A stretch of 64,000 bases of DNA, from positions 1 through 64,000 of the forward strand of contig JAGAJL010000008.1 of the NCBI GenBank assembly GCA_017626095.1, written 5' to 3'. Of this stretch, positions 5,494-63,959 are shown piece by piece. Under the pieces are notes generated by a model that worked only from the letters and a program-made list of their open reading frames with translations, had not been told where the DNA came from and made no database searches. Each line of letters opens with the position of its first letter. Position 1 is the first letter of the stretch. The position numbers and the translations under genes are program-made. Origin of the DNA: Lachnospiraceae bacterium (GTDB lineage Bacteria; Bacillota; Clostridia; Lachnospirales; Lachnospiraceae).

Positions 5494-6213
5494 TTATTTT
5501 GTCCTTTTCTCAATAAGTTTATGGAGTTTCTTCAAGGCGTCTTTAATTCCGCCGACTTCATCGATAATTCCCTCTTTTACCGCCTCTTTTCCTACCAAAA
5601 TACTGCCGACATCTTTTGTCAAAACTTCCGTTTCCATCATCAGTTCCAAAAAACGTTTTTCACTGATCTTACAATGTGATGTCACAAATTTACTGATACG
5701 GTCTTGAATTTGTTTAAAGTAATCAAAGGTTTGGGAAACACCAATTACCATACCGTTTAGACGAACCGGATGAATCACCATCGTACCGGTTGGAACAATA
5801 AAAGAATAATCTGTACTGACAGCAATCGGAACGCCGATGGAATGGCTTCCGCCAAGCACAAGCGATACGGTTGGTTTACTGATGGATGCTATCATCTCCG
5901 CAATTGCAAGCCCCGCTTCCACATCACCACCCATTGTATTTAATAAAATAAGAACGCCGTCAATATTTTTATCATCTTCAATTTCAGCTAGTTTGGGTAA
6001 AATATGTTCATATTTGGTTGATTTTGTGGAACTGCTCAGACAATCATGGCCCTCTATTTCTCCAATAATGGAAAACATGTATATTTTATGATTTTCTTTG
6101 CTGGTACATAAATCAGATTGACCCGTTTTTTCAATTTTTTCATCGTTCTCATTTGAATATTCCTTATTATCTTTCTCTGTCTTTTCGTTTTTTGCTTTAT
6201 AATTCTGACTCAT
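5494..6213 (-). CDS. tepA: ClpP-fold protease, TepA/YmfB-like
   Basis: Cytosolic serine protease of the ClpP/crotonase superfamily, the type called translocation-enhancing protein TepA in Bacillus. The first 40 residues are charged and low-complexity. The ClpP fold follows, with GVLILLNTMGGDVEAGLAIAE as the oxyanion-side segment and a likely nucleophile serine in GGSHSIGVP near residue 125. A histidine in VIHPVRL is a candidate for the second catalytic residue. Length (239) agrees with the family. The ATG follows GGAGG with 7-base spacing. It lies 57 bases upstream of ftsK on the same strand. Substrates are not known from sequence. An intrinsic-terminator-like hairpin sits just upstream of its ribosome binding site. 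Confidence 0.85.
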   Translation of the reverse strand: MSQNYKAKNEKTEKDNKEYSNENDEKIEKTGQSDLCTSKENHKIYMFSIIGEIEGHDCLSSSTKSTKYEHILPKLAEIEDDKNIDGVLILLNTMGGDVEAGLAIAEMIASISKPTVSLVLGGSHSIGVPIAVSTDYSFIVPTGTMVIHPVRLNGMVIGVSQTFDYFKQIQDRISKFVTSHCKISEKRFLELMMETEVLTKDVGSILVGKEAVKEGIIDEVGGIKDALKKLHKLIEKRTK

Positions 6214-6230
6214 TTTGATACCTCCGAACT

Positions 6231-6259
6231 AAAAAAGAGCCTTAAAAAGGCTCTTTTTT
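6231..6259. terminator. Intrinsic terminator-like hairpin upstream of tepA
   Basis: A perfect 11-bp stem (6231-6241 with 6249-6259) encloses a 7-base loop and is flanked by A- and T-runs, so it could terminate in either direction. On the minus strand it could end transcripts leaving the 10.0-6.8 kb operon through the fold-back element. It also lies only about ten bases upstream of the tepA GGAGG site, so any tepA mRNA starting at the TATAAT at 6281-6286 would carry it in its leader. Confidence 0.8.
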
Positions 6260-6291
6260 ATTATGCACAATTCAAATATTATTATACAAAT

Positions 6292-6774
6292 CCATTTTCG
6301 GATTTATATTCCCACTATATATGTGTTGCAAGTGCGATATATGGGGGTTTTGACCTTAGATGCAGACTTTTATCTCTGCCATCGTTTCTCACTTTTTATT
6401 ATTCGCAACTTTGGGTACATAGCCAGTCACCCAAACAAAAATTATATATCTTTGCCCACGGAATTTAGCGAGGTTTTCTGGCATTTCTTAGCGGCATAAG
6501 CGAACAAAAATTATGCCCGGTTTCAACTGTCTGAAGACGAAGTCTGAGTTTTGAAACCGGGCATTTAATAAATACTTTGTGAGCATGCCGCTTAGAAATG
6601 CTGAAAACCGAAGTATGAAGCGGCAAAGATATATATTTTTGTAAGGGTGACTGCCATCCCGCAAAGATTGCGAACTTTGTGAGAAACGTGGCAGAGCGTC
6701 TGCATAATCGGTCTGCAAACCCCATATATCGCACTTACGGCACATTTCTTTAGGGAATACAAATCCGAAAACGG
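6292..6774. mobile_element. 483-bp fold-back (long palindrome) element, copy A
   Basis: This stretch holds no credible gene but is a single long imperfect inverted repeat. The outer ends (6292-6313 and 6753-6774) match in 20 of 22 positions as inverted repeats. Inner blocks also pair: 6331-6347 with the segment starting at 6720, around 6425 with 6645, 6484 with 6590, and a perfect 14-bp central stem 6513-6526 with 6551-6564. The unit is flanked on both sides by ACAAAT (6286-6291 and 6775-6780), a possible 6-bp target-site duplication. Three shorter relatives occur at 14.5, 16.7 and 40.3 kb. It encodes no transposase, so if mobile it is non-autonomous. A structured RNA or terminator role is an alternative. 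Confidence 0.75.
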
Positions 6775-6783
6775 ACAAATTAT

Positions 6784-6951
6784 TTATTCCACATCAAAAT
6801 CATCGTTTGGAAGTATCTCAATGTCATAATGCATTTTTTCTTCCGATACCGGAAAATCAAAATCCATTTCTTTTTTTACATGCCGTTTGGGCACAGGTAA
6901 CGGATTTTTAATAAATTGTGTATCACCATGTGGCATATTACGCATATCCAT
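6784..6951 (-). CDS. Small 55-residue protein of unknown function
   Basis: A short open frame starts 4 bases after the glycosyltransferase stop, with GAGGA nine bases before its ATG, so it looks like the last gene of the operon. The product is hydrophilic: an N-terminal stretch rich in Met, Asn and Pro (MDMRNMPHGD), a basic patch PKRHVKK near residue 22, and an acidic tail ending PNDDFDVE. There is no membrane segment, signal or known motif. The frame ends ten bases before the fold-back element. I do not recognise a family; the good ribosome binding site and tight spacing are the main support. Confidence 0.55.
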   Translation of the reverse strand: MDMRNMPHGDTQFIKNPLPVPKRHVKKEMDFDFPVSEEKMHYDIEILPNDDFDVE

Positions 6952-14464: not shown

Positions 14465-14496
14465 AAAAATCGAGTATACTGACTAAAACTTTACTC

Positions 14497-14703
14497 TTAG
14501 TGGCTTAGCGAACAAAGTCAATGCCCGGTTTCAACTGTTCGAAGACGAAGTCTGAGTTTTGAAACCGGGCATTTAATAAATATTTTGTGAACATGGCGCT
14601 TAGAAATGCTAAAAACCGAAGTATAAGGCTAGAAGGACATCTGATTTTCTGTAAGGACGGCTTGCGTCCGGCAAATTTTGCGCTGTTTGGTTTTGATAGT
14701 GGA
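14497..14703. mobile_element. Fold-back element, copy B (left arm truncated)
   Basis: Shares the central 14-bp stem with copy A (14521-14534 with 14559-14572), the loop with its internal hairpin, and the right arm out to about 14703. Beyond the core, the stretch 14647-14703 still aligns with the outer right arm of copy A, including TGTAAGG and GCAAA blocks. On the left, homology stops within about 25 bases of the core, just short of the rex -35 region. The copy sits between divergent rex and the ABC-F gene and may lie in their 5' leaders. No other gene is visible in the 375-base gap. Confidence 0.7.
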
Positions 14704-16723: not shown

Positions 16724-16991
16724 GCCTGTCGCCCTAACAGAAATTATATATCTTTGCCCACTTCATACTTCGGTTTCTGGCATTTCTAAGCGGCATGCTC
16801 ACAAAATATATATTAAATGCCCGGTTTCAAAACTCAGACTTCGTCTTCAAACAGTTGAAACCGGGCATTATTTTTTGTTCGCCTATGCCGCTAAGAACTG
16901 CCAAGAAACCTCGTCAAATTCCGTGGGCAAAGATATATAATTTCTGTTAGGGCGACAGGCTATGTCCGTAAAATTACGAATAATAAAAAGC
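16724..16991. mobile_element. Fold-back element, copy C (reverse orientation)
   Basis: Starts one base after the ABC-F stop codon. A perfect 37-bp inverted repeat (16724-16760 with 16924-16960) encloses the same core as copy A in the opposite orientation, with central stem 16817-16830 / 16855-16868. The right flank to about 16991 still matches the outer left arm of copy A, so this copy is truncated on the ABC-F side. It lies between convergent genes, where the hairpin could also work as a bidirectional terminator. The 270-base gap holds nothing else. Confidence 0.75.
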
Positions 16992-40309: not shown

Positions 40310-40465
40310 AAGAAATATATCTTTACTCGTCGCATTTTACGCGGTTTTGTGCTTTTCTTAGTGGTATAAGAGAGCAAAAATAATGCCTGATTTCAACGGC
40401 TCGAAGACAAAGTCTGAGTTTTGAAATCAGGCATTTAATATTATTTTGATATATATTTTTTTGAA
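40310..40465. mobile_element. Fold-back element, copy D (diverged, right arm truncated)
   Basis: Retains the left arm and central hairpin of copy A: stem 40383-40396 with 40421-40434 and the loop containing GAAGACAAAGTCTGAG. Relative to copies A-C, the stem differs at two positions on each side (CCGG-type replaced by CTGA-type), all compensated so pairing stays perfect. The right arm ends soon after the core. It lies between the convergent Rpn and PilZ genes. Confidence 0.65.
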
Positions 40466-45612: not shown

Positions 45613-45875
45613 TCCCATAGCACAAAACATGCTATGGGACGAAATATTCCGCGGTACCACCCAAGTTCCCGGAAACCGGGCACTCAAAACTCGATTAACG
45701 CTCGAACACGTTGTCTTCTACTACTGTGAGTACATTCAAAGACAAAGCTCAGATGGGAAATTCATTTTTTACGAGAACCGAAGGAAGCTTTCAGCCGGTG
45801 GCTTCCTCTCTCTGCCGGTGTATAAAAAACTACTGTGCATCTTCATCGCTTTTTATAAATTTGATTTATATAACA
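45613..45875 (-). promoter_or_regulatory. T-box leader of pheST-queA
   Basis: The minus strand carries the invariant T-box GGGTGGTACCGCGG (complement of 45649-45662), followed by a 12-bp terminator stem at 45613-45639 with a T-run. The antiterminator can form by pairing the T-box bulge with uncharged tRNA. Upstream is a long stem I region with a TTC triplet near 45755-45765, consistent with a Phe specifier. The downstream pheS gene supports this reading. Specifier placement was judged by eye. Confidence 0.9.
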
Positions 45876-49357: not shown

Positions 49358-49566
49358 AAAAACAGCCCATTCGAGCTGTTTTTCATTCGTTCCCAAAATG
49401 TCGGCTCACGTATTTTGACGCCTAGCTAACGCCAGGTGGGCGACCTCACCTTTACTTCTGAAGTCCACTACACTTAATGGGAGGCGTGTCATCCGTAAAG
49501 TTTATTGGAATCCCGTTCAAATTCAATGTAGGTTCAAAACAACATGAGTTATCGAACATTTCAGGT
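49358..49566 (-). ncRNA. ssrS: 6S RNA
   Basis: A minus-strand RNA of about 190-205 bases that fits 6S RNA, the promoter mimic that binds sigma-A RNA polymerase. It has GTTTTGAACCTACATT on the 5' side and a closing stem formed by AAATGTTCG with CGACATTT. A long irregular hairpin lies between, and a terminator (stem 49358-49366 with 49375-49383, T-run) ends it. A consensus promoter ends seven bases before the predicted 5' end. No open frame fits. Call rests on remembered family sequence, length and fold; a covariance-model search would settle it. Confidence 0.78.
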
Positions 49567-49572
49567 AGTTTT

Positions 49573-63876: not shown

Positions 63877-63959
63877 TGCCGGTGGCGGGACTTGAACCCG
63901 CACGTGGTTGCCCACAACAGATTTTGAGTCTGCCTCGTCTGCCATTCCGACACACCGGC
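63877..63959 (-). tRNA. tRNA-Leu (anticodon CAA)
   Basis: An 83-base class II tRNA. The acceptor arms GCCGGTG and CACCGGC pair fully, with A as discriminator. The anticodon loop CTCAAAA gives CAA, reading UUG. The variable arm GTTGCCCAC-type stem-loop and the TPsiC arm (GGTTCAAGTCC on the tRNA strand) are present. CCA is not encoded: the base after the discriminator does not match. It is transcribed leftward and followed by a terminator. Confidence 0.95.

Follow-up and report, generated by a model that had tools for sequence, protein, structure and literature searches.

Dispersed palindromic repeats of one family, with a terminator-like core hairpin, in Lachnospiraceae

The long palindrome near the start of the window (the whole 64,000-nt stretch of Lachnospiraceae DNA that was analysed) belongs to a family of dispersed palindromic repeats, and this identity is firm. 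In the fuller reading, which we consider probable, it is one of the copies of a non-autonomous repeat whose range is limited to one clade of a Lachnospiraceae genus and which carries a hairpin of terminator form on its minus strand. The repeat unit has three modules: its ends are inverted repeats, its long arms are complementary and changeable in length and sequence, and its apical hairpin is fixed. With support from the comparisons described below, we infer both a termination role for the apical hairpin and the upkeep of the arms by template switching.

Structure of the focal palindrome

The focal fold-back is real: the aligned inverted repeat covers 485 nt at 6291-6775, with 87% complementarity over the aligned arm positions and a 24-nt central loop, and its RNA fold of -236.9 kcal/mol compares with -115.2 +/- 6.0 kcal/mol for shuffled sequences (n = 100; z = -20.35), none of which equalled it. 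The first-pass annotation had placed the palindrome at 6292-6774, with outer arms matching at 20 of 22 positions, ACAAAT on both sides and a small hairpin nested within the long one, and all of these observations were reproduced; the 20 of 22 matches hold for 6292-6313 against 6753-6774, the flanking words lie at 6286-6291 and 6775-6780, and the small hairpin, with strands at 6513-6526 and 6551-6564, is the core (Table 1). No convincing gene was found inside the palindrome, whose only ORFs, of 89 and 96 aa and both on the minus strand, are mechanical, in agreement with the earlier view that it encodes no protein. Its description as a MITE-type fold-back is apt in that it is a non-coding repeated unit with defined inverted ends and thus has the general form of MITEs and REPINs. 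Elsewhere in the window, Rfam models placed a T-box leader (45632-45855), a 6S RNA (49386-49570) and a tRNA (63877-63959) on the minus strand.

Table 1. Features of the focal repeat, its surroundings and related loci. Plus and minus orientations of repeat copies are set by the core motif GAAGACGAAGTCTGAG.
Feature	Position	Strand	Basis or remark
Focal copy of the repeat, long class	6291..6775	+	inverted repeat; fold z -20; 87 own-genome matches
Left terminal inverted repeat	6292..6313	+	family consensus TTCCCTTTTCGGATTTGTGTTCCC
Right terminal inverted repeat	6753..6774	-	
Left arm, varying between size classes (approximate limits)	6314..6482	+	inverted repeat and size classes
Conserved core region	6483..6605	+	basis of covariance model R1
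T tract, minus-strand AATTTTTGTT, terminator-like	6503..6512	-	abuts the core hairpin in minus-strand reading
Core hairpin	6513..6564	+	14-bp stem 6513-6526/6551-6564; inner AGAC(GAA)GTCT hairpin 6535-6545
Right arm (approximate limits)	6606..6752	+	inverted repeat and size classes
ACAAAT left flank	6286..6291	+	probably no target duplication
ACAAAT right flank	6775..6780	+	
ClpP-like gene, left neighbour	5494..6213	-	named by eye
Native intrinsic terminator beside the element, T runs on both sides	6230..6260	.	conserved in G003 and G008
Small predicted gene, stop codon facing the element's right end	6784..6951	-	home-made ORF score, alignment
Further family copy	14495..14682	+	
Further family copy, shorter	16728..16990	-	
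Further family copy, core and part of left arm	40315..40440	+	
ppiB-like/amtB-like intergenic palindrome with diverged core	L238:1432-1706 (G001); L110:4450-4758 (G003); L259:2699-3003 (G000)		gene names by eye

Copy number and range of the family

A 495-bp query gave 87 matches, merged by eye to 40 places, in the genome to which the window belongs (G000; 55 contigs totalling 2.74 Mb, 87% complete). Copies of the 23-nt core motif, counted at no more than one mismatch, numbered 77 in G000 and, in two sister species, 64 in G003 and 68 in G008 (100% complete); at the same threshold none were present in the other six of nine same-genus genomes. The carriers are thus a small number of related gut bacteria. 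With two mismatches allowed, the motif matched in 2 of 397 family genomes, both of the same genus, in a sample that was drawn without G003; the whole element matched in 3 of 61 relatives, and a further MAG, JAQXTA, holds at least one copy. Searches of plasmids, phages and viral contigs with the element gave no match. The earlier statement that the element could not be matched to a named repeat family stands insofar as no named family was found, and no description turned up in an open-access literature search of limited extent, but a family does exist, with about 75 copies in this genome. Nine G000 contigs (C17, C18, C22, C23, C31, C44, C46, C48 and C51) end within the element, which thus interrupts the assembly, so identical recent copies could be missed.

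Ends, size classes and core

Intact copies have the consensus ends listed in Table 1, with AT-rich DNA beyond them. Both ends, at no more than 5 mismatches of 19 each, were recognised in 37 of 166 core copies; the others are truncated, have diverged or run off a contig or locus. Lengths counted from TTTT to AAAA fall at 227-234 nt for 28 of these two-ended copies and at 466-477 nt for six, including the focal one; the remaining three measure 181, 332 and 346 nt. Coreless copies (L030, L031 and L039), cores that abut an end, and 30-nt end-only hairpins were also seen. The end folds by itself (CCCTTTTCGG-loop-CCGAAAAGGG), and among 20 end-only loci that were read, six held a singlet and one a 54-nt doublet. 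At the orthologous loci L158 and L080, an end copy adjoins an AT-rich stretch with DnaA-box-like words, which we take to be possibly an origin region.

In 38 aligned core copies, the upper stem and the inner AGAC(GAA)GTCT hairpin were nearly invariant, and two pairs of the lower stem varied in a compensatory manner. Copies were chosen via the core motif, so the invariance of the motif is in part a product of that choice, but the half of the stem beyond the motif is about equally conserved. This near-invariance of inner hairpin and upper stem suggests protein binding or a role as RNA. A K-turn reading of the apical loop was weighed by eye and dropped.

Candidate routes of mobility

The ACAAAT words had been taken as a possible 6-bp target duplication, a reading that found no support, as the focal copy is alone among 40 in having a 6-nt repeat at its offset. 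Flanking direct repeats of at least 6 nt occurred at 10 of the 40 copies (the left end of one, L030, being approximate), while 300 shuffles gave 5.1 on average and never more than 11. Repeats of 9 nt at symmetric offsets reached a best z of 2.1 among 34 copies, the set left when L030 and five near-duplicate orthologues were dropped. These counts lean against a classical MITE, moved by cut-and-paste by a DDE transposase in trans and flanked by target duplications that have since decayed. Such an origin would fit the conserved inverted ends of about 24 bp, the AT-rich flanks, the dispersed copies and a few long direct repeats near the end boundary, such as 10 nt (AAAAGAATAA) in L066 and 9 nt in L212. 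However, no autonomous element was recognised among the facing end pairs of the three genomes, nor was a clean empty site found, and we regard a MITE in this strict sense as unlikely.

A transposase with matching ends, for which the first-pass annotation had proposed a search, was not recognised with the Y1 family model (PF01797), among facing ends or, by eye, at end-only loci. Facing end pairs 0.8-6 kb apart, with ends at no more than two mismatches and interiors that were read in part, numbered only four in the three draft genomes; three of these have a nearer end between them, and the fourth, of 4.3 kb on G000 C15, links two loci with a partial copy each. Inspection by eye of the 20 end-only loci revealed no transposase. 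In three other Lachnospiraceae (G663, G683 and G696), end-like inverted pairs were considered as possibly linked to the present ends; between them, L232 has an ORF of 205 aa and L234 one of 319 aa, neither of which looked like a transposase by eye. The pairs at L231, L232 and L234, CCCTTTTCGGAATTGTGTACCC and CCCTTTTCGGAAAAGTGTTCCC about 600-1300 bp apart, possibly represent a cassette-like element family.

A second route would be REPIN-like, with two inverted REP-like hairpins moved as single-stranded DNA by a Y1 (RAYT) transposase that leaves no duplication. The independent folding of the end, the singlets at 6 of 20 end-only loci together with the single 54-nt doublet, and the lack of a consistent duplication are all in keeping with it. 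Against it, PF01797 (Y1) matched neither G000, which is 87% complete, nor G008, which is 100% complete, and the single match in G003, in the 2.3-kb locus L176, has no end-like motif at up to 5 mismatches, so a Y1 transposase was rejected as the present mobiliser. In addition, the singlet site L172 is occupied by a core-bearing copy in G003, and singlets may therefore be collapsed copies. A REPIN-like origin is thus rated as quite improbable.

Shared sites and the age of the spread

Sites for which both flanks could be compared carried a core in both genomes in 24 of 25 cases for G000-G003, 27 of 31 for G000-G008, 24 of 28 for G003-G000, 26 of 28 for G008-G000, 15 of 18 for G003-G008 and 15 of 15 for G008-G003, fractions that are biased upward by the choice of most loci for carrying a core. 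The sharing of sites suggests that the main spread took place before the species split. The copies at shared sites often differ in size: among 131 core-in-both comparisons (both directions), 41 agreed within 5 nt in length and 71 differed by more than 40 nt. At one locus with the same flanks, G003 has a short-class copy, G008 a long-class copy and G000 a long copy without core, and at L116 in G008 the centre is missing from a copy that is present in G003, which fits a deletion between ATTTT repeats.

Some copies are found in a single species, among them one in G008 (L090) and one in G003 (L062, near 3752), the latter a mini copy of about 90 nt made up of core plus end; neither has a counterpart in G000, where L192 corresponds to the G003 locus. 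No clean empty site was found; L221 against L077 was considered as one and rejected, the flanks being too different and a deletion in G008 equally likely. The closest G000 paralogues are about 97-99% identical over roughly 150-270 nt, and orthologous flanks are mostly 87-99% identical. Since the paralogues are no less alike than the orthologous flanks, copying may be more recent than the split, and some copying or conversion may have continued after it.

At the focal site, G003 has a short-class left end that halts just past the core, and G008 has the core only; both have AATGACCGG...CCGGTCATT in place of ATGCCCGG...CCGGGCAT in G000. Sites in relatives, where the left half or the core alone is found, do not end at 6292/6774, which goes part of the way to refuting the transposable unit of the first-pass annotation by its own test. 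In G001 there is no copy, and the gap of 154 nt, against 637 nt in G000, is 483 nt shorter; this does not constitute a clean empty site, as the intergenic DNA of G001 cannot be aligned exactly. At the place of the native terminator beside the element, G001 has a different terminator-like hairpin (by eye). Given the forms in G003 and G008, a copy was probably already present at this site in the ancestor of the three species. Either the long copy in G000 arose by replacement or conversion, or the G003 and G008 forms are remnants.

A diverged relative of the core lies between ppiB-like and amtB-like genes in G000, G003 and G001, being in G001 the single core relative (69 bits with model R1). At this locus G003 carries the core in the opposite orientation to that in G000 and G001. 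Outer arms are alike in G000 and G003, those of G001 gave no BLAST match in G003 and no alignment with G000 or G003, and each genome's set pairs almost perfectly. In a tree of these three cores and 40 dispersed ones, the ppiB cores formed their own group with a support of 1.00, about equidistant from the dispersed cores (means of 72%, 72% and 70%). The ppiB-amtB copy was therefore rejected as the direct founder and is regarded as a sister locus rather than a demonstrated founder. G001 also has a second, unrelated palindrome of 260 nt without core beside an hrcA-like gene (by eye; L262:13936-14195).

Linked changes in the arms

Comparisons of arms between orthologous copies revealed that the two sides change together. 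In 3780 comparisons (both directions) from 19 orthologous pairs, 69 double changes were counted, 59 of them to Watson-Crick pairs, against 2.0 expected from the one-sided rate; only Watson-Crick pairs common to the folds of both strands entered this count. Among the one-sided changes, 65 produced G-U and 48 produced A-C (p = 0.35). Linked change without a clear strand preference fits copying between arms at the DNA level. Other counts of G-U over A-C (232:156, 705:611 and 142:89) lean towards a plus-strand structure but carry a bias, either from choosing pairs by the fold or from common ancestry; the last of these drew several pairs from the same locus and included three whose alignment was poor (identity 0.60-0.66), and the 19-pair count dropped these.

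In a further explanation, the repeat would be a plus-strand structured non-coding RNA amplified for a cellular function, for example as a protein-binding hairpin in 3' UTRs. The near-invariant apical hairpin, with its Y-G pair, adjoining G-A positions and GAA triloop (a motif noted by eye), and the compensatory changes in the lower core stem speak for such an RNA, as does the greater stability of the plus-strand fold in 90% of 106 copies, by a mean of 7.0 kcal/mol. On the other hand, the strand-neutral count gave no significant G-U excess, Rfam produced no match within the element at the gathering threshold and only two chance-level matches up to E = 10, and copies are surrounded by genes in both orientations. 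Amplification for an RNA function is viewed as unlikely.

In the preferred reading, that of a non-autonomous repeat, template switching from one inverted repeat to the other as the DNA is replicated would preserve the complementarity of the arms, and would also invert the core and swap the arms. Deletions between direct repeats in the arms would help to produce the size variants. Sharp and Leach reportedly described palindrome-induced deletion in ERIC sequences.

Direction of the terminator-like core and gene context

The T tract beside the core is one-sided. At least five T residues within 8 nt past the core stem were present on the minus strand in 150 of 163 copies and on the plus strand in 20 of 163 (69 and 11 of 73 in G000 alone), and it is on the minus strand that the form of an intrinsic terminator, a stem with a GC block followed by a T tract, is found. 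Typical terminators have loops shorter than the 24 nt of the core hairpin, and this loop contains an inner hairpin that is superfluous for a terminator and counts against the terminator reading.

The copies are situated after the ends of genes. Neighbouring genes, called by a home-made ORF score, were available on both sides for 149 of 166 copies and were convergent in 70, divergent in 11, (-,-) in 38 and (+,+) in 30 cases, with two copies inside called genes and 15 at edges; an earlier pass over 128 copies agrees. These counts include orthologues, counted apart, and represent fewer events than copies. In G000 alone, 65 copies with both neighbours gave 30 convergent, 6 divergent, 15 (-,-) and 14 (+,+), with two inside genes and nine at edges. 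Background gaps of at least 80 nt in seven long stretches comprised 11 convergent, 14 divergent and 27 co-directional ones. In the 60 nt on either side of the core centre, right-hand minus genes contributed 26 stop codons and left-hand plus genes 9, and start codons numbered 2 (9, 4 and 1 in G000 alone). A neighbour's intrinsic terminator pointed into the element at 13 of 74 flanks, three of these being orthologous repeats, and away from it at one, compared with a mean of 1.0 and a maximum of 3 inward-pointing terminators in 50 shuffles.

Judged from these sequence features, the core would terminate transcription, stopping that of the gene that enters from the right, and copies at the 3' ends of genes would for this reason be tolerated or kept. 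At L090/L049, the G008 core copy occupies the position at which a terminator-like hairpin (by eye) lies between the same two genes in G000. The upstream gene at L062 appears to take its final codons and its stop from the mini copy.

A different account would dispense with a transposase of the repeat's own altogether: as a mobile terminator, the one-way hairpin within its palindromic arms would replace native 3' intergenic DNA and be copied and rewritten, with arms swapped, core flipped and length changed, through replication template switching and ectopic conversion. We hold this to be rather improbable. The non-autonomous repeat that we favour would have undergone its main spread before the three species split, by means of an enzyme now lost or unrecognised, followed later by some copying or conversion.

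The family forms a natural series that can be compared site by site across three or four species, with conserved cores, arms that change as matched pairs and lengths that step between classes, and thereby makes the origin, persistence and shrinkage of long bacterial palindromes directly testable. It also suggests a route by which transcription terminators could be replaced genome-wide.

Comparison with known systems

Among bacterial repeats, BOX elements are modular. Like the present family, the SPRITE, BOX and RUP elements of Streptococcus pneumoniae are described as interspersed repeats that are small, limited in phylogenetic range, rich in secondary structure and slow in their present turnover (PMC3049150), and SPRITE, expanded as 'rho-independent terminator-like element' (PMC10969869), is a terminator-like member and shares that feature. 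The present family, compared with them by description rather than by sequence, differs in its long fold-back and in the inverted ends around the terminator-like hairpin. REPINs and REP singlets, as portrayed in PMC3116915, also comprise inverted doublets that have a spacer and form hairpins, together with singlets, and are extragenic; they are tied to RAYT, whereas no Y1 transposase was found in two of the three carrier genomes studied here and the spacer is a long palindrome with a conserved core.

The ERIC, NEMIS and YPAL families are similarly intergenic, with long and short forms, and ERIC folds as a single long stem-loop (PMC2267715). In the available part of that source they measure about 70-170 nt, against mainly about 235 or 480 nt here, and a one-sided T tract goes unmentioned. 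QMITE1/2 and the Chunjie MITEs, according to the available part of PMC10969869, resemble the present family in their inverted ends, strong size variation and truncated REP-like copies, but keep direct repeats, of which none are consistent here, where no related IS was recognised either.

The closest parallel for the arms is a mutation mechanism rather than an element family. Template-switch mutation at inverted repeats, as treated in the available parts of two sources, was studied in yeast coding DNA and in RNA genes; arm homogenisation and spacer inversion have been attributed to it (PMC8604942), and it is able to create and maintain hairpins (PMC8794818). The likeness lies in that homogenisation and inversion, which fit the linked arms and inverted cores of the repeats described here.
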